The translations under genes were made by a program, and so were the position numbers. Source: Enterobacter ludwigii (GTDB taxonomy: Bacteria; Pseudomonadota; Gammaproteobacteria; Enterobacterales; Enterobacteriaceae). From it: a DNA stretch of 64,000 bases. Below are positions 7,069 to 35,425 of this stretch, piece after piece. The stretch spans positions 454,410 through 518,409 of the forward strand of contig CEFQ01000001.1 of NCBI GenBank assembly GCA_900068845.1. Reading direction: 5' to 3'. The notes under the pieces are model-generated. The model searched no databases, was not told the DNA's origin, and worked only from the letters and a program-made list of their open reading frames with translations. The number at the start of each line of letters is the position of its first letter. The first letter of the stretch is position 1.

Positions 7069-8075
7069 TTGAGATCGAACAGAGCGGTGCGCTGAATACG
7101 GTACAGGATTTAGGACGTTTCAACTTCCGCCACATGGGCGTATCGGTGAGCGGCGCGATGGATGCGCTGGCGCTGCGTGCTGGTAATTTACTGCTGGGCA
7201 ACGATGAAAACGCGGCGGCACTTGAAGTGCAGCTGTTCCCGTTCCGCATGCGTTTTCTGCAGGACAGCAGCATCGCGGTGACCGGCGCCGATTGTCGCGC
7301 CACGCTGGATGGCACGCCGCTGCCGCCATGGTGGGGCTGTGGCGTACGCGCCGGGCAGGTGCTGGAGCTGCGTTACCCGCGCAGCGGCGCGCGTGGCTAC
7401 GTGTGTGTCGCCGGCGGGATTGATGTGCCGCTGGTGCTCGGCTCGCGCAGTACCGCGCTGCGCGGCGGTTTCGGTGGTGTTGAAGGACGCCCGCTACAGC
7501 GTGACGATCGGCTGTCGCTGGGCGAAAGTCGCAGCCCGGCACTTCCCCACAGCGGCATCGGCATCGAACCGCCAGACAGCGCGTTACATGCCTGTTTTCC
7601 CCGCAATAGCGCCGGAGAAATTCAGCTGCGTGCCATTCCCTCCGGCGAATACCCGCTGTTTGCAGCCGATGCTGCGCGTTTCTGGCATCAGTCGTGGCAA
7701 GTCTCCACGCAAAGCAATCGCACCGGCTATCGGCTATCAGGTGATCCGATCTTCCCGTCAGAAACTATTGAAATGCGATCTTACGGACTGATCCCCGGCA
7801 TTGTGCAAGTGCCACCGGGTGGCGAACCGATTATCCAGCTAAGCGATGCCAACACCGCTGGCGGCTATCCGAAGATCGCTGGCGTGATCGAGCAGGATCT
7901 GTGGCGGCTTGGGCAAGTGCTGCCGGGTCAATCGATCCAGCTGATCCAGAGCGATGTGCGCGAAGCCATCGCCATCGAACAGGAAGTCGCGCGCTGGCTG
8001 AATCGGCTGCGCCTCAGCTGCCAGCCACTGCGTAAAGCCCTTACCGTTTACTCTGCACAAGGACCCCAACCATGA
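7065..8075 (+). CDS. pxpC: 5-oxoprolinase subunit PxpC (KipA family)
   Basis: This 336-residue protein is the biotin-dependent-carboxylase-like KipA/PxpC partner of PxpB. It opens with SGALNTVQDLGRFNFRHMGV, the usual start of the family, and contains GAMDALALRAGNLLLGN and SNRTGYRLSGDPI motifs. It combines with PxpB in the subcomplex that, with PxpA, hydrolyses 5-oxoproline. The start is a GTG overlapping the pxpB stop, and its own stop overlaps the pxpA start (ATGA), so the three are translationally coupled. Domain order and length fit the family; nothing is missing. Confidence 0.93.
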   Translation: MIEIEQSGALNTVQDLGRFNFRHMGVSVSGAMDALALRAGNLLLGNDENAAALEVQLFPFRMRFLQDSSIAVTGADCRATLDGTPLPPWWGCGVRAGQVLELRYPRSGARGYVCVAGGIDVPLVLGSRSTALRGGFGGVEGRPLQRDDRLSLGESRSPALPHSGIGIEPPDSALHACFPRNSAGEIQLRAIPSGEYPLFAADAARFWHQSWQVSTQSNRTGYRLSGDPIFPSETIEMRSYGLIPGIVQVPPGGEPIIQLSDANTAGGYPKIAGVIEQDLWRLGQVLPGQSIQLIQSDVREAIAIEQEVARWLNRLRLSCQPLRKALTVYSAQGPQP

Positions 8076-8842
8076 AGATTGATGTGAATTCCGATATGGG
8101 CGAAGGCTTTGGTGTTTACCAGCTGTGCGATGACGCTGCCCTGATGAAAGTGGTGTCGTCGGCCAATATTGCCTGCGGTTTCCACGCTGGCGATCCGGCG
8201 ATCATGACCAACATGGTGCGGCTGGCGAAAGAGCACGGTGTAGGCATTGGCGCGCATCCCGGCCTGCCCGATCGCCAGGGTTTTGGCCGGCGCGAGCTGC
8301 CGTTTAGTGCCGAAGAGATTTGCCAGCAGGTGGCGTATCAACTCGGTGCGCTGATGGCGATTGCCGTTGCAGAAGGTACGCAGGTCTCGCATTTCAGTTT
8401 CCACGCCGCGATGGGCAACATCGTCAACCGCGATGCCGCGCTGGCGCAACAGGTGATGGAATCAGTGGCGCGCATTAATAGCGATCTGATCATCTTCGCC
8501 CAGCCCGACACGATCATCGAAGCCGCCGCGCAGGCAGCTGGCCTGAAGACGCTGACGCTGTTTCTGGCCGACCGCGCCTATGACGCGCAAGGTCGCCTGG
8601 TGCCACGCGGCATCGCCGGTGCGGTGATCAAAGAAGAGCACGCACTGCGCGCCCGCGTGCGGCAGTTTTTGCAGCACGGCACGGTGACGACGATTGAAGG
8701 TGAAGAGATTGTCGTGCGTGCGCGTTCGATTCTGGTTCACAGCGACACGCCAGGCTCACTGGCGCTCGCCACCCTTGTGCGCCGCGAAATCGAAGCCAAC
8801 GGCCATCAGGTCGCCCCGGCCGCGCAAGTGTTAGCGCAATAA
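8072..8842 (+). CDS. pxpA: 5-oxoprolinase subunit PxpA (LamB/YcsF family)
   Basis: The 256-residue product is a LamB/YcsF family protein. Conserved motifs are NSDMGEGFG at residues 6-14, ANIACGFHAGDP near 30-41, and the AHPGLPDRQGFGRR segment near 61-75. PxpA is thought to carry the ATP-dependent ring-opening activity of 5-oxoprolinase together with PxpB and PxpC. It is the last gene of the four-gene run that begins with the binding protein at 5516 and is followed by a REP palindrome and a long structured non-coding block. E. coli PxpA (YbgL) has a similar length. Confidence 0.94.
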   Translation: MKIDVNSDMGEGFGVYQLCDDAALMKVVSSANIACGFHAGDPAIMTNMVRLAKEHGVGIGAHPGLPDRQGFGRRELPFSAEEICQQVAYQLGALMAIAVAEGTQVSHFSFHAAMGNIVNRDAALAQQVMESVARINSDLIIFAQPDTIIEAAAQAAGLKTLTLFLADRAYDAQGRLVPRGIAGAVIKEEHALRARVRQFLQHGTVTTIEGEEIVVRARSILVHSDTPGSLALATLVRREIEANGHQVAPAAQVLAQ

Positions 8843-8846
8843 CCCT

Positions 8847-8870
8847 GGTCGCCATAAATGGCGCCCCTAC
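8847..8870. repeat. REP-like palindrome (GTCGCCAT type)
   Basis: GGTCGCCATAAATGGCGCCC, the palindrome most often repeated in this window, lies 4 bases after pxpA. It may protect the 3' end of the pxp transcript. Confidence 0.75.
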
Positions 8871-9195
8871 AAAACAGACCGCGAATATGCAGCAAGAGAA
8901 CGCATTGCTGTCACAGCGCGGGTGTTGAGGCGACATCCCGACCCGCTGAGCGAATGAGGGATTCCAGGGCGAGCCGCAGGGATGCGGCGAGAGGCGGCGC
9001 TGAGCAGGAGCGAATCGCCGCCGGTCCGTAAGGCATCGTGAACGAGCGAAGGCACCGCGCAGCGGCGGGCTGGGCCGGCGCAAGGCCGGGGAGTGCTGAG
9101 GGCGCGGCCAGGCGCCCTCTGCTCGGTCGCCGCACGATATCGCTGAAACTGACCCAGCCGAGGGCGAACGAAAGTCGCGCCGTGCGAACAAGATC
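8871..9195. other. G+C-rich non-coding block with at least four perfect hairpins
   Basis: No plausible gene is seen in these 325 bases; the minus-strand frames across it are arginine/proline/alanine-rich and look like translated structured DNA. Perfect stem-loops occur at 8973-8988 (GCCGCA/TGCGGC, GGGA loop), 8993-9022 (GGCGGCG/CGCCGCC), 9075-9089 (CCGGC/GCCGG) and 9098-9119 (GAGGGCGC/GCGCCCTC). The block starts right after a REP palindrome and ends at the aminotransferase stop. It may be a larger dispersed intergenic element or a structured RNA. I cannot name it. Confidence 0.6.
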
Positions 9196-10398
9196 TCAGC
9201 GACAGCTGTCGCAAAACGCCGCAATGCGATCGCATCCCGTCTCTAACCGCTCCATGCTCGTGGCATACGACAACCGGATAAACGGGCTCATGCCGTACGC
9301 CGCGCCCTGCACTGTCACCACGTGCTGCTCCTCAATCAACGCCAGCACAAAATCGGCATCATTCATGATCAACCGACCACCGGCACTGGTTTTGCCGATG
9401 TAGCCCGCGATATTCACAAACAGATAAAACGCGCCCTGCGGTTTATGGCAGCGCAAGCCGTCAATCGACGTCAGGCGCTCCAGCACGTAATCGCGGCGCT
9501 GACGATAAATGTGTGCGCGCGCCTGCAACAGATCCTGCGGGCCTTCCAGCACCGCCACCGCCGCTGCCTGGGTTAAGGTGCAAACGCCGCCGCTGTTCTG
9601 GGTATTAACATTGCTCATCGCTTTAATTAACGGCGCTGGGCCGCCGCAGAAACCCAGACGCCAGCCAGTCATTGAATAGGCTTTTGACACGCCGTTCACC
9701 GTCAGCACGCGGTCATACAGACGCGGCTCAACCTGCGCCAGCGTATAAAAGCGCACATCGTCATAGATCAGGTGTTCGTAGATATCGTCGGTCATGATCC
9801 ACACCTGCGGATGGCGCAGCAGCACCTCACCCAGCGCGTGCAACTCCGCTTTACTCGCCACCGAACCGGTGGGATTGCTCGGATAGTTAAGCAGCAACCA
9901 TTTGGTCTTGTCGGTGATGGTCGCGTCTACATCGGCTGGCAACGGCTTGAAGCCGTTCTCCTGCGCGCAGGGCAATGCCACCGGAACGCCACCGGCGAAT
10001 TTGACGATATCGGCATAGCTGATCCACGACGGTGAAGGGATGACCACTTCATCGCCCGGATTAATGGTCGCGAGGATCGCGTTAAAGATGATCTGCTTCG
10101 CGCCGCCAGCGGTGAGGATCTGGCTGACATCGTAATCGAGCTGATTATCGCGTTTGAACTTCAGCTGGATCGCTTTGCGCAGCGCCGGCGTGCCGTCGGT
10201 AGGCGGATAGCGCGTATCTCCGGCGCGCGCGGCGGCATAAGCGGCCTCAATTGCGTGAGGTGGCGTAGGAAAATCGGGTTCACCGGTGGAAAGCGCGACA
10301 ACATCAATGCCTTGGGCGGCGAGATCGCGGGCCTTTTGGGTCATAGCAACGGAGGCAGAAACGGTGACATTCTTTAATCGATCGGCTATCTCGGGCAT
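9196..10398 (-). CDS. PLP-dependent aminotransferase, class I/II (aspartate aminotransferase-like)
   Basis: The 400-residue product is a fold-type I aminotransferase of the AspAT Ib group. The PLP-binding lysine lies in VNGVSKAYSMTGWRLG near residue 235, NYPSNPTG supplies the cofactor ring contact near 170, and FIRLSYATS near 380 carries the carboxylate-binding arginine. I chose the ATG at 10398 because AGGA lies 7 bases upstream; the frame is open further upstream but has no site. It is convergent with pxpA and divergent from the Nac-like regulator. After oxoprolinase yields glutamate, a transaminase could pass its amino group to a keto acid, which would explain its presence here; this is inference. 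The specific amino donor is not determined. Confidence 0.9.
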   Translation of the reverse strand: MPEIADRLKNVTVSASVAMTQKARDLAAQGIDVVALSTGEPDFPTPPHAIEAAYAAARAGDTRYPPTDGTPALRKAIQLKFKRDNQLDYDVSQILTAGGAKQIIFNAILATINPGDEVVIPSPSWISYADIVKFAGGVPVALPCAQENGFKPLPADVDATITDKTKWLLLNYPSNPTGSVASKAELHALGEVLLRHPQVWIMTDDIYEHLIYDDVRFYTLAQVEPRLYDRVLTVNGVSKAYSMTGWRLGFCGGPAPLIKAMSNVNTQNSGGVCTLTQAAAVAVLEGPQDLLQARAHIYRQRRDYVLERLTSIDGLRCHKPQGAFYLFVNIAGYIGKTSAGGRLIMNDADFVLALIEEQHVVTVQGAAYGMSPFIRLSYATSMERLETGCDRIAAFCDSCR

Positions 10399-10697
10399 AG
10401 GTTTATCCTGGCTCAGTGTCAGCATGAACGGCTTGCAGCGAGCTGCAAACACGACGTTTACCAGAGGATAGGTTTTTGCCCGAAGCGGCGGTTAATAGTG
10501 CTTTGTTGTGGTGATATAACACAAAGCGATGACTGTACCGACCGCACACTTTCGCCATAAAGGTGGCGAGTCTGATGAGGAAATGCGCGGCCGGTCACGT
10601 GTCAGCGCCTGACGCAATGTTAATAGAGTGTTACTTTGAGTGCCGGTGAACAGCGCGCAACGCTCATGCCCATCATCGCCAAATCTAATGAGTGAAT

Positions 10698-29789: not shown

Positions 29790-29953
29790 GCAGTTCTCCT
29801 GAATAGCGGCGATGCGCTATTGCAGCACGCGCCGCACGACCAAACCTTTTGCTGATGGACAACCCATGGCGTAATGCAGATCAGTTACGACATGAAGATC
29901 GACACCACAGAACGCACGTGCCGTCGCGGTTGATCAGCATCATGGGCGACCAA

Positions 29954-30769
29954 CTACTTAACCGCGCCTTCGGTGACACCGCTGATAAATTTGCGCTGGA
30001 ACACCAGGAACACCGCCACCAGCGGCAAGATGACAATCATCGCCCCCGCCATCAATACCGGAATATCGATGGTGTTTTTGTTCTGGAAAAACATCATGCC
30101 GATTGGCAAGGTGCGCAACTCATCTTTATTCACCAAAATCAGCGGGATCAGGAACTCGTTCCACGTCCAGATAAACAGCAACAGCGCCAGTGTTGATAAC
30201 GTCGGCCAAATCGCCGGCACCAGCAAGCCCCAAAGAATTTTACGGCGCGATGCACCATCCATCACCGCCGCTTCCACCAGCTCGCGCGGCACCTGCTGCA
30301 GCGCGGTGGCGATCATCAGCGTGGTGAACGGCAGCGATAAGGCGATTTGCGGCAGAATCAGCGCCAGATAGGTGTTGGTGAGCCCCATCCAGCGCAGCTC
30401 GTGATACAGCGGAATAATAAAGGCTTCACTCGGCAGCACCATGCCAAGACCCAGCAGCGCGGCAACGACCGTTTTGCCGGGGATCTTCAGCCAGGCAAAA
30501 CCGAATCCCGCCAGAATGCCGAGCAGGACGCTGCAGATCACCACCGGAATCACCACCAGCACCGAGTTCATGAAGTAGACGTTGAAATGTCCCTGCTGCC
30601 ACGCGGTGACGTAGTTTTTAAAATTAAGCGAAGAGGGCAAAGTGAACACGCCCTGAAACAGCTCCATCTGGGTTTTGAACGACGTCATTAGCGCCATTAA
30701 AAATGGCAGAATGGTCATCAGCGCCACAATCCAGATCAGCGCGCGTGGGGCAAAAGGCGTGCCGCGCAT
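29954..30769 (-). CDS. Carbohydrate ABC transporter permease, MalG type
   Basis: The 271-residue inner-membrane protein has six predicted helices and the EAA loop EAAVMDGASRRKILWGLLVP near residue 180, which docks on the ATPase. I chose ATG 30769, which shares a base with the upstream permease's TGA and has GGGAG 8 bases before it; an in-frame ATG at 30790 is possible. With the MalF-type partner it forms the channel of a CUT1-family oligosaccharide importer. It is the last transporter gene before the GH28 enzyme gene. Confidence 0.9.
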   Translation of the reverse strand: MRGTPFAPRALIWIVALMTILPFLMALMTSFKTQMELFQGVFTLPSSLNFKNYVTAWQQGHFNVYFMNSVLVVIPVVICSVLLGILAGFGFAWLKIPGKTVVAALLGLGMVLPSEAFIIPLYHELRWMGLTNTYLALILPQIALSLPFTTLMIATALQQVPRELVEAAVMDGASRRKILWGLLVPAIWPTLSTLALLLFIWTWNEFLIPLILVNKDELRTLPIGMMFFQNKNTIDIPVLMAGAMIVILPLVAVFLVFQRKFISGVTEGAVK

Positions 30770-31641
30770 CAGTGACGCTCCCGTAAGCATAAATGAATTA
30801 ATCCATTGATTATCAAAACAATCATCATACTGAACACCGCCACGGCGGAAGCATAGCCGAAGTAGTGCAGGTCAAAGCCCTGCTTATACATAAAGATGTT
30901 GGTCACCATGGTGGAAGTGCCCGGTCCGCCTTGCGTCATTACGTAGACTAAATCGAAGGCTTTCAGGCTGGCGATCACCGTCAGTAGCAGCGCGATACGC
31001 AGTTCGGGACGCAGCGATGGCAGCGTGATGCGCATAAACTTCTGGCGGCGTGATGATCCATCCAAATCGGCCGCTTCCAGCAGCGAGGGATCCATGCGCT
31101 GCAAGCCCGCCATAAACAGCACTAAGCAGAAACCGAAGAAATACCACGTGGCGACAAAGCCGACGGCCGGTAGCGCCCAGGTAAAATCACCCAGCCATGA
31201 CAGCGCCAGCTGGGGCAAACCGACGGCACGCAGGAACTGATCGATCGGACCAAATGCCGGGTTATACAGCCAGCGCCATACCACGCCGAGCACCGCCATC
31301 GGCATGATGTACGGCAGAAAGAAGAGGATCCGCAGCACGCTGCGCTCTTTATTATTGCGCGTCTCATACAGGAAACTGCACAGCAGCAGCCCAACGCCAA
31401 TCGGAAACAGCGTGTAGAACAGCATTAGCAGGGCATTATTACCGAGCGCTACCCAGAATATTGGGTCCTGGAACATGCGCAGATAGTTGCCAATGCCGAT
31501 GAAAATCGGCCATGAGGTACCATCCCATTCGGTAAAGCTGATCCCTAACGAGGCCAACAGCGGCAGCAGCAAAAACACCGCATACACCAGCACTGCGGGC
31601 AGAAGATAAAGCGCATTGCGCCAGGCAGATTTATTCAGCAT
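30769..31641 (-). CDS. Carbohydrate ABC transporter permease, MalF/UgpA type
   Basis: The 290-residue membrane protein begins with a hydrophobic helix (LYLLPAVLVYAVFLLLPLLA) and carries the EAA loop SLLEAADLDGSSRRQKFMRI near residue 203. It has six helices in all, as in UgpA/MsmF-type permeases without the extra MalF domain. It lies between the binding protein gene (60-base gap) and the MalG-type partner (one-base overlap), in one operon. Confidence 0.9.
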   Translation of the reverse strand: MLNKSAWRNALYLLPAVLVYAVFLLLPLLASLGISFTEWDGTSWPIFIGIGNYLRMFQDPIFWVALGNNALLMLFYTLFPIGVGLLLCSFLYETRNNKERSVLRILFFLPYIMPMAVLGVVWRWLYNPAFGPIDQFLRAVGLPQLALSWLGDFTWALPAVGFVATWYFFGFCLVLFMAGLQRMDPSLLEAADLDGSSRRQKFMRITLPSLRPELRIALLLTVIASLKAFDLVYVMTQGGPGTSTMVTNIFMYKQGFDLHYFGYASAVAVFSMMIVLIINGLIHLCLRERH

Positions 31642-31700
31642 AACCGTACTCGCTTGCGGGCCTGTTCGCGGCCCGGCTACTTACACCGGGCCGAACGTCA

Positions 31701-33044
31701 TCAGTGCTTGAGGGTTTTCTGGTAACGTTGATAGTTGTTATCGAAGTTTGCCACCATCTGTTCGGCAGTTTGACGTCCCGCCAATAACAGCTGCACGTTC
31801 TGGTTCAGTTCGGCATTCATGGTTGGCGTGGCCCAGTCGAGATAATGGCCGAGACCATCGTTCTCATTGAGCGCGACCCACACCTGATACGCTTCCGCTA
31901 ATAGCGGATTGTCAGCGGGAATCTGTGCATTTTTGCTGGTGCCGGCAGGCAGAAAGCCGACTTTCAGCCAACGGTTGGCCATCTCGTCTGAGACGATGTA
32001 ATCAATAAATTTCGCTGCTGCATCTTGCTGCGCTTTGTCTTTAGCCGTGCTGGTAATCGAGAACGCCAGATCGGTGCCGCCCACCATCAGCGGATGCTGC
32101 ACACCCTCGCCTGCTGGCATCGCGGCGAAATGCAGATCTTTGTTGTCTTTAAACTGGCCGAGATACCAGGTTCCGCTCACGAGGAATGCGGCCTGACCAT
32201 TCTGGAATAAGGTAGCGGCATCGTCGTGACCAATGCCCTGGAAGCCCGGGAACAGGTAGCCTTTATCGTTCCAGCCTTTCATCAGGTTGGCGGCTTTTAC
32301 CAGCTTGTCGTCTTTGAACGTGCCGCCCACGTCATAAATCAGATCGTCGAGTTTTTTACGGTCGCTGCTCTCAATCTGCGCTTCCCACAAGGTGCTCAGC
32401 AGCTGCTGGCCCATGTTGCCGTCAAGCAGGCCCAACATCATGGGCGGCGTACCGGCAGCTTTGAGTTTTTCCATCGCCTGTTCCAGCTCCGGCAAAGTCT
32501 TGGGTACCGCGACACCGGCTTTATCCAGCAGCGCTTTGTTATAGTACAACCCCACCATCTCACCGAGGCTGGCCACGCCGTACAGTTTGCCGCTGCCAAA
32601 ATCTTGTTTATCTGACCAGCGGTTACGTTTCAGGATCGAATCCGGGAAGCGCGTGCTCCAGCCGTAGGTTTTGGCGTAATCATCCAGCGGCCACAACAGT
32701 TTGTCTTTCACCAGCGAACCCATATCGCCGCCACCCTGATTCACCTGGGCAATCTGCGGGCCATCACCGGCAGTCAACGCCAGTTTAAGTGGAATGCGTG
32801 TGTCTTCGAAGGAGTGCACCGAACGCTGAATCACAATACCGGGATTCTTTTGCTGGAAAGCTTTTACCGCTTCATCCACGGCTTCGGTCTGCTGCGGATA
32901 GTTGTAAATGTCCCATTCATTCAGGGTAACGGCCTGCGCGGCTGCCATGGTCGCACCGAGCAACATCCCGGCGGAGACCAGACGCGACACAGTGCGCAGT
33001 GAGCTTTGCAAACGGGAAGAACGATTGGTTGAATCACACATCAT
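31701..33044 (-). CDS. Carbohydrate ABC transporter substrate-binding protein (family 1)
   Basis: The 447-residue product has a long signal peptide (hydrophobic core around 22-36, ending AQA near 38) and then a CUT1 binding fold: [37 protein letters not shown] and [20 protein letters not shown] are typical blocks. GGAG 8 bases upstream fixes the ATG at 33044; the TTG 15 bases further upstream overlaps that site. It would capture an oligosaccharide in the periplasm for the two permeases downstream. The divergent region up to 33571 separates it from a GNAT gene and the ATPase gene. Confidence 0.9.
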
Positions 33045-33571
33045 GCTCGGTTTCTCCAACAGATGACTGGCATCCCTTCATCTCAACACCTGCGATTCCT
33101 GGCAGGTTGATTCAGCGGCAACAACGCACATAATTCATACTTACTTTATGCACAAAAGAAAGTCAAACATCGTCACTGCGGAATTTTTGCTCTGTGATAC
33201 AGTGCAAAGAGTAAGAAGAAAAGCCCCCTGAGTAGCAGAGGATGCTGTGAACAGCGCCGCAAACCAGATAGCTCCGGGATTAAAGCGCGACCTTCAGTAT
33301 AAATCACCCAGGCGAATAACGTGCTTTAACTTGCTGATAGAGCATATGAAAATCCTATAGCTCAGCGAATAGCATCAGGACATTGGCGGTGCTCGACGGT
33401 CAACAGCCCTTAGCAGCGGGCATTCTGCGCGGGTTGATGAGGCGCTCAGTCATGCTTTGTGGTGATAGTTCGCATCAGCTTTGTGCGCCAGCGCAATTAT
33501 TACACCTTGAAAACTAAGTCGGCTTTCTTTACCGTAAAATCTGTTCATCTCCTGACCACAGAGGCTCCACC
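33045..33571. other. Divergent regulatory region, no gene seen
   Basis: These 527 bases separate the binding-protein gene from the GNAT-ATPase pair and must contain promoters in both directions. No believable coding frame or perfect operator is visible. A partial CRP-like word, TGTGATACAGTGCAAAG, lies near 33192-33208, but only its left half matches the consensus. Confidence 0.5.
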
Positions 33572-34171
33572 ATGACGGCTGAAGGTGTTATTCGTCGCGC
33601 CAGCGAGGCAGATTTCCCTGCCTTATCGCGCATCTGTTTAGAGACCGCCAATGCCGGGACCGATGCCAGCGCGCTCTACTCTGATCCCGCGCTGCCCGGC
33701 CTGCGCTTTGTCATTCCCTACGCGCGCTTTGCGCCCGAGTTTGCTTATGTGCTGGAGCAGCACGGCGACGTCGTCGGCTATGCGGTCGCGGCGCCGGATA
33801 CGCGCGCCTTTGAAGCGCAGCTGAATACCGATTGGTGGCCACAGCTGCAGCAGCAATATCGTGATTACGCGCCGCGGGCAGCGCTCGACAGCAAAGTGCT
33901 GGAGGCCATTCATCAACCCGATGCGGCCGCCGAACAGCTGGTGACACAGTGGCCTGCACATCTGCATATCAATCTCCTGCCCACCGCACAGCAAGGTGGC
34001 TGGGGCCGCAAGCTGATCGCACAGTTGCTGCACGATCTGCGTGCGGCCGGCGTGCCGGGCGTTTACCTCGGCGTCAGCCTGCAAAACGAGCAGGTATGCG
34101 GTTTCTATCAGCGCCTCGGCTTCACGCCGATTATGCGTAGCAACGCCATTTATATGGGCCAACTTCTCTGA
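33572..34171 (+). CDS. GNAT-family N-acetyltransferase
   Basis: The 199-residue product has the GNAT fold, with the acetyl-CoA loop in [16 protein letters not shown] near residues 138-153 and the terminal FYQRLGF block near 180. The N-terminal half ([21 protein letters not shown] and [17 protein letters not shown]) resembles the acetyltransferase-like domain of the human O-GlcNAcase family, by memory only. It is 13 bases upstream of the MalK-type ATPase gene, so both are co-transcribed. A link to amino-sugar metabolism is suggested by the NagK-like kinase gene nearby; the acceptor is not known. Confidence 0.85.
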
Positions 34172-34184
34172 TTCGAGGCACCGC

Positions 34185-35276
34185 ATGACCAGCCTGCATC
34201 TGCAAAACGTTAAGAAGTCCTACGAGAATGTAAACGTCATTCACGGTATCGATCTCACCATTAACAGCGGCGAATTCGTGGTGTTTGTGGGGCCATCCGG
34301 CTGCGGGAAATCCACGCTGTTGCGTATGATTGCCGGACTGGAGGAGATCAGTGACGGTAAGTTGCTGATTGAAGGCGCCGACATGACCGATCAGCACGCC
34401 ACCGAGCGCGGCATCGCCATGGTGTTTCAGTCGTATGCGCTCTACCCGAATATGACGGTGCGCGGCAATCTGGCCTATCCGCTGGAAGTGATGAAGCGCC
34501 CCAAGGCCGAGATTGAACAGGCGATAAAACAGACGGCCGCGCGCCTGCATCTGACTGAATTCCTTGACCGCTTACCGCGCGCACTGTCAGGCGGGCAGCG
34601 TCAGCGCGTAGCTATTGGCCGCGCGATTATCCGCCATCCGCGTATCTTCCTGTTTGATGAGCCACTGTCGAACCTCGATGCCGAGCTGCGTTTGCAGATG
34701 CGCATTGAAATTGCCCGCCTGCATGCCTCGCTGGGCAACACTATGATCTACGTGACGCACGATCAGCTGGAGGCGATGACGCTGGCGGACCGCATCGTGG
34801 TGCTGCGTCAGGGCCGCATTGAGCAAGTTGGCGCGCCGATGGCGCTGTATCGCGATCCCGACAACCTGTTTGTCGCCGGATTTATTGGCTCGCCGAAGAT
34901 GAATTTCCTCAACGCCGAAGTGGCCGCAATCACGCCGGGTGCGGTGCAGCTGCGTGTGCCAGCGTTGGGGATCAGCCAGTTGACGCTGCCGATCGCCGCG
35001 CCGTGCCGCGAAGGGCAAAAAATCACGCTGGGCGTGCGCCCGGAGCATTTCCAGCCGGTGAGCAGCAACGATGATGCACTGCGTTTCAGCGGCGAGTTGT
35101 CGTTTAGTGAGATGCTAGGGCACACCAACTATCTCTATCTCGACATCGGTGAAGAGAAACTGCTGGTGATTGAGGAACGTAACGTGGCGGAGCATGCGAT
35201 TGGCGAGAGACTGAATTACCAGCTGCGTGCTGAGAACTGCTTGTTGTTTGATGAGCAGGGTTTGCGGCTGCGGTGA
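34185..35276 (+). CDS. Carbohydrate ABC transporter ATP-binding protein (MalK/UgpC/MsmK type)
   Basis: The 363-residue ATPase has Walker [10 protein letters not shown] near residue 36, signature [14 protein letters not shown] near 135, Walker [13 protein letters not shown] near 156 and switch [12 protein letters not shown] near 190, followed by the C-terminal MOP/OB regulatory domain (about 240-363) seen in CUT1 importers. GAGG precedes the ATG at 34185. It is encoded apart from the permeases on the opposite strand, and no other carbohydrate ATPase is nearby, so it most likely drives the 29954-33044 importer. Confidence 0.92.
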
Positions 35277-35300
35277 TGGCTGCGGTGCGTTCATTTTTAC

Positions 35301-35425
35301 GGTCGCCATAAATGGCGACCCTACGTTTACAGAGCTGGGCTTTCGTAGGGTGCGCATTCATGCGCACCTGCTTAACAAGGCAATTATTTGCTTAAGTGTG
35401 CGGCATTACGCCATAAATGGCGACC
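35301..35425. repeat. Cluster of three REP-like palindromes
   Basis: A GTCGCCATAAATGGCGAC copy (35301-35324), a GTGCGCATTCATGCGCAC copy (35346-35368) and a partial CGCCATAAATGGCGACC (35409-35425) lie between the convergent ATPase and ROK genes. Confidence 0.75.

Follow-up and report, generated by a model that had tools for sequence, protein, structure and literature searches.

A dispersed structured RNA element between pxpA and an aminotransferase gene, probably a truncated MITE-like repeat related to TwoAYGGAY

The TwoAYGGAY RNA (RF01731, clan CL00106) was discovered in 2010 (PMC2864571) and has been an orphan since. A 2014 proposal made it a CsrA-binding small RNA with tandem GA pairs and described its external stem as poorly conserved (PMC4333381); the link to CsrA is a prediction. 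Here we describe a block of non-coding DNA in a 64,000-nucleotide stretch (the window) of assembly GCA_900068845.1. The reading that we favor, and consider probable as a whole, is that this block is what is left, after truncation, of one copy of a MITE-like, non-autonomous element with a TwoAYGGAY-related RNA aboard, that this holds for both its identity and its carrier, and that a function involving CsrA is the most likely one.

The block lies in a 353-base gap (8843-9195) between pxpA (8072-8842, + strand) and a class I/II aminotransferase gene (9196-10452, - strand). As the initial annotation had observed, the segment is exceptionally G+C-rich (0.67 for the gap, against an intergenic mean of 0.48, the highest of the 23 non-coding gaps of the window), and the four perfect stems listed there are all present, at 8973-8988, 8993-9022, 9075-9089 and 9098-9119. 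The window had no match in Rfam at the curated cut-off, and its sole match at E 10, a snoRNA, was judged to be due to chance. Folded singly, this copy shows no stability beyond that of its dinucleotide shuffles (z -0.19, not significant), so the case rests on comparison between copies. Stems in one sequence prove nothing by themselves; covariation across copies does. A covariance model (R1) was built from 20 copies. The features of the window copy are as follows.

8847-8870, + strand: internal REP-like palindrome GGTCGCCATAAATGGCGCCCCTAC, a 5' part that the window copy retains; it equals the central spacer of the full element and lies at the same spot, just 5' of the core, in full-length copies.
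8913-9178, + strand: the whole conserved unit, very probably a TwoAYGGAY-type structured RNA core (133 bits with R1, which has the window copy in its training set).
8940-9068, + strand: portion of the core spanned by R1.
8960-8965, + strand: 5' strand of helix P1, GATTCC, pairing with 9032-9037 to close a three-way junction; 6/6 pairs have two-sided changes, and the window copy has one T-C mismatch.
8973-8988, + strand: hairpin P2, GCCGCAGGGATGCGGC, with a GGGA loop closed by A-U, the first GGA site (GGA in 121 of 126 distinct sequences).
8993-9022, + strand: hairpin P3, GGCGGCG...CGCCGCC, with a TGA/GAA internal loop and an apical GC-AGGA-GC, the second GGA site (GGA in 122 of 123 distinct sequences).
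9032-9037, + strand: 3' strand of P1, GGCATC, supported by covariation.
9055-9065, + strand: hairpin P4, CCGC-gca-GCGG, supported by covariation.
9075-9089, + strand: GC-rich hairpin CCGGCGCAAGGCCGG (CCGGC-gcaag-GCCGG), not conserved as such.
9098-9119, + strand: strong stem P5, GAGGGCGCGGCCAGGCGCCCTC, whose letters change between species while complementarity stays (judged by eye); it lies outside R1 and was not counted.
9160-9195, + strand: 3' tail (GGCGAACGAAA repeat) with a right end in decay; the window copy lacks the intact end GCTTAACTGATCGGCATTA, which is present in the orthologue L135.

Among 126 distinct sequences, two-sided compensatory changes were found in 24 of the 29 pairs tested. 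The covariation score was 0.398, whereas shuffles gave 0.109 and slid partners no more than 0.087, in an alignment fitted to the model structure and to that extent biased toward pairing. For example, P1 appears as GATTCC/GGAATC, GGCC/GGCC or GCTGCC/GGCAGC, and P2 as GCCGCA..TGCGGC, GCGGCA..TGCCGC, GCGACA..TGTCGC or CATCA..TGATG; a further helix, P0, is weak (38-85% paired). While the stems vary, the loop GGA stays constant in P2 and P3 (96-99% of distinct sequences), and such invariant GGA loops on changing stems are the signature of candidate CsrA sites. The GGA of the P1 junction reads GGG in the clade of the window copy. A lack of homologues and a lack of covariation had been named beforehand among the grounds for refutation, and both are clearly contradicted. 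The block is almost certainly a dispersed structured RNA element that encodes no protein.

How widely does it occur? By BLASTN the window's own genome (5.08 Mb, Pantoea) has 15 copies, each some 270-350 bp long, along with shorter fragments, and the covariance model finds 21 structural matches there. DNA similarity extends to 47 of 59 further genomes from the genus and to none of 39 from other genera; the matches that bear names are Pantoea. The unverified impression of the initial annotation that similar sequence recurs in related genomes was thus borne out. With R1, 56 of 61 genomes of the genus match, with from 1 to at least 55 copies per genome, as do 26 of 295 genomes and 11 of 100 genera in a search of Enterobacterales. 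In a separate search, E. coli genomes gave no match. Scanning with a degenerate pattern extends the names to Pectobacterium, Serratia marcescens, Brenneria, Symbiopectobacterium, Izhakiella, Tatumella, Pseudomonas and Stutzerimonas. In one genome (G039) the RNA unit forms tandem arrays that repeat roughly every 410 bp (loci L024 and L095), and at L100 (G005) the arrays consist of head-to-head pairs. Loci L117-L125 (family f25, probably Aeromonas) have related RNAs in which a long conserved stem, GTGACTTT...AAAGTCAC, comes next in place of P5.

The same annotation had left the choice between an undescribed dispersed element and a structured RNA. The block is both at once, although its RNA core is akin to a described family, RF01731. 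This kinship emerges from divergent copies: L046, L026 and L028 score 50.1, 49.9 and 48.6 bits, above the RF01731 gathering score of 43, and score 125.7 and 114.1 bits (L046) and 112-117 bits (L026, L028) with R1, whose training set includes several of them. Three copies in the own genome pass the RF01731 cut-off and 14 control genomes gave no matches. Since the window copy itself has no match to RF01731 even at E 10, and so does not reach the 43-bit threshold, its link to the family is transitive. The RF01731 matches begin at model position 43, leaving the outer 5' part (1-42) unmatched. In the core, the neighboring hairpins P2 and P3 both end in NGGA loops, and one stem has what is, going by sequence only, probably a tandem G-A motif (TGA opposite GAA within P3). 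We regard the core as very probably a TwoAYGGAY-type RNA.

The carrier can be recognized by its ends. In the own genome, copies terminate in 19-bp inverted ends, TAATGCnnnTCAGTTAAGC (78 matches, against none for the reversed control), and are flanked by a 14-bp target duplication. Flanking 14-mers agree within an element (mean Hamming distance 3.5, against 5.25 between elements; 0/10,000 permutations), and the several overlapping or nested pairs among the rows permuted weaken this signal but do not create it. Examples are the non-palindromic CGACCTAAACTGCC on both sides of L067, CGGCATAAATGCCG at L029 and CGCTATTGATGGCG at L062; the insertion targets are palindromes of REP or terminator type, mostly REP-like. 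There are three size classes: about 134 bp without RNA, about 400 bp with one RNA, and about 700 bp with a head-to-head pair of RNAs. The last is the complete form, its two modules lying on either side of a central spacer that contains a REP palindrome. In species where such ends were not seen, the units are as a rule likewise paired head to head. The element thus has terminal inverted repeats (lost in the window copy), target-site duplication and insertion polymorphism, and the RNA is very probably MITE-borne; the window copy derives from the 400-bp form, with one RNA module, and has lost both ends.

No autonomous parent and no transposase with the same ends was found among the TIR pairs listed for the fetched loci and four genomes. 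Larger TIR pairs proved not to be parents: a 1.7-kb pair in G059, like a comparable stretch elsewhere, consists of insertion-sequence-like DNA that lies within an element, and two ends 5.5 kb apart in the window (29872-35408) enclose ordinary ABC-transporter-type genes and are a coincidental pair. Insertion-sequence-like DNA lies within the element at L276 and L278 of G059, in the P5 hairpin in the case of L278. The 134-bp form is abundant in the own genome (e.g. L050, L059, L062 and L067), with the same ends and an inner palindrome, GTAGCGGCGCAATTTATTGCGCGATAAATCGCGCCGCTAC, in place of the RNA. At 35300-35425 in the window, REP palindromes of the GTCGCC and GTGCGC types are clustered, and the cluster finishes with GCTTAAGTGTGCGGCATTACGCCATAAATGGCGACC, which is the right end of a further MITE of the same family without RNA core. 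RAYT-driven REP movement was rejected because the own genome has no PF01797 protein (0 detected, against 7 of 30 genomes in the genus).

Comparison of the pxpA-aminotransferase gap among relatives shows the element in three genomes and its absence in at least 15. G027 and G004 carry it, and G004 retains the right end GCTTAACTGATCGGCATTA adjoining CGCCATTTATGGCGACC. G046 has an empty site with a single bare palindrome, GTAGGGTCGCCATTTACGGCGACC, and one much like it stands alone in G052; G059 and G031 have REPs without the core, and more distant species have a plain terminator or other repeats. In G018 there is an independent insertion at the same spot, of a different related RNA with a TAATGATTGTCAGTTAAGC end. 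The C-terminus of the aminotransferase varies with the element (9190-9210; L136, L135, L134), reading ...CDSCR* where it is present and ...CDSCV* in G059; the stop codon of this gene appears to be supplied by the element's edge. What can be read directly from the sequences is the repeat, the covarying fold, the GGA loops, the tie to RF01731 via intermediate copies, the inverted ends, the target duplication, the empty site and mobility over evolutionary time.

In 41 clean cases, where a simple ORF rule served to define the genes, the flanking genes were convergent in 23 and divergent in 2, and in tandem-gene contexts no orientation bias was found (7 sense, 9 antisense); the element thus lies at gene 3' ends with no preferred direction. 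A sigma-70-like promoter was not found upstream of the cores: none of 123 scored at least 9 of 12, against 11% of shuffles. The own genome has one csrA gene (92 bits), and the RNA has multiple GGA hairpin sites. On our reading, a transposase encoded elsewhere would move the element in trans, and the element would settle between convergent genes, where it would do little harm. Read-through from flanking genes would yield the RNA, whose P2 and P3 loops could offer paired GGA sites to CsrA, and the many copies might jointly titrate CsrA as a decoy. That the RNA is a CsrA decoy is a serious candidate function on this sequence evidence, if a little short of likely. More speculative, and on present evidence doubtful, is the extension that the element multiplies as a carrier of CsrA-sequestering RNA, each insertion at a gene 3' end adding a decoy, so that copy number tunes CsrA, a global post-transcriptional regulator, differently from one Pantoea species to the next.

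The RNA module might instead serve only the element, for example in transposition or its control, with no function for the host. The wide range of copy numbers among species and the decay or interruption by insertions of several copies fit such a selfish passenger, but the module also occurs in many genomes where MITE ends were not seen (Pectobacterium, Serratia, Brenneria and others), and we consider this explanation rather unlikely.

A fold acting at the DNA level is a somewhat weaker alternative: inverted units would form hairpins or cruciforms on single-stranded DNA for a transposase, gyrase or IHF, and transcription would be irrelevant. The units are mostly head to head about an A/T-rich spacer with no promoter signal and, as noted above, show no orientation preference relative to tandem genes. 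Against it, the NGGA loops and the TGA/GAA internal loop are conserved strand-specifically, the core is kin to an RNA family in Rfam, and G-U pairs exceed A-C pairs, by 33 to 7 distinct helix haplotypes in P2 and P3. For P1-P4 the counts were 59 and 30 (p 0.003), in an alignment fitted to the structure; a first test that included the weakly supported P0 gave 37 and 35 and no asymmetry, so that the excess emerges only without P0. A thermodynamic case for the + strand was dropped, 58 of 66 shuffled controls also showing greater + stability, which is an effect of base composition. Weighing these points, we think a DNA-level role improbable.

Much the same weight falls to a role at gene 3' ends in the manner of REP/BIME, in which the stacked hairpins would terminate transcription or shield messages from 3' exonucleases. 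Insertions lie mostly between convergent genes, and at this very locus relatives have in its place either one palindrome or a simple intrinsic terminator; such a role nevertheless leaves the near-invariant GGA loops, the three-way junction and a conserved unpaired GGTCCGT unexplained, and there is no U-run after P5. Finally, the idea of a protein gene in decay, or of DNA that is GC-rich by chance, to which a 198-aa ORF crossing the block on the minus strand and the unremarkable single-sequence fold might lend color, is refuted by the covariation and thus vanishingly improbable: substitutions track base pairing rather than codons, the ORFs overlapping the block have no Pfam match, just as the absence of a protein-like frame had been reported at the outset, and plasmid matches have no annotation beneath them.

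If the favored reading is true, this is an unusual mobile element, one that spreads a structured regulatory RNA instead of a protein. TwoAYGGAY-type RNA here is abundant, defined by covariation and present in numerous Enterobacterales that can be cultured (Pantoea, Pectobacterium, Serratia, Brenneria), and is therefore directly testable. The open-access literature, which leaves subscription journals outside, contains no account that we found of a high-copy, MITE-borne, head-to-head form, and nothing relevant on Pantoea repeats, Pantoea MITEs or CsrA in connection with MITEs.

Among known systems, CsrB/RsmZ-type decoys also have GGA in hairpin loops, in pairs, in hosts with csrA, but they are products of one or two dedicated genes, whereas here a dispersed repeat, upstream of which no promoter was found, has two to three GGA sites in each unit and predicted CsrA binding. 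GTAG-type REPs/BIMEs (PMC3733652) contribute the GTAG-tagged palindromes, GTAGGGTCGCCATnnATGGCGACC, that occur both as targets and within the element; the core, however, is not a REP, and the own genome, which has at least three families of GTAG-type REP palindromes, yet has no detectable RAYT. With bacterial MITEs the element shares short length, lack of an ORF, inverted ends, target duplication and insertion polymorphism; it differs in its conserved structured RNA, in having no parent transposon that we found, and in a 14-bp duplication inside palindromic targets. With TwoAYGGAY it shares the paired (A)NGGA-loop hairpins in a closing stem, the CAGGA...CGG..CGUC flanks and the tandem-GA stem, although the subtype in the window is beyond the reach of the Rfam model and the unit is longer (about 265 nt, with P4, P5 and tail). 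The RNA family and the CsrA idea were already known; what is new is the mobile form of a TwoAYGGAY-type RNA, in high copy number, in head-to-head pairs and on a TIR/TSD-bounded carrier.
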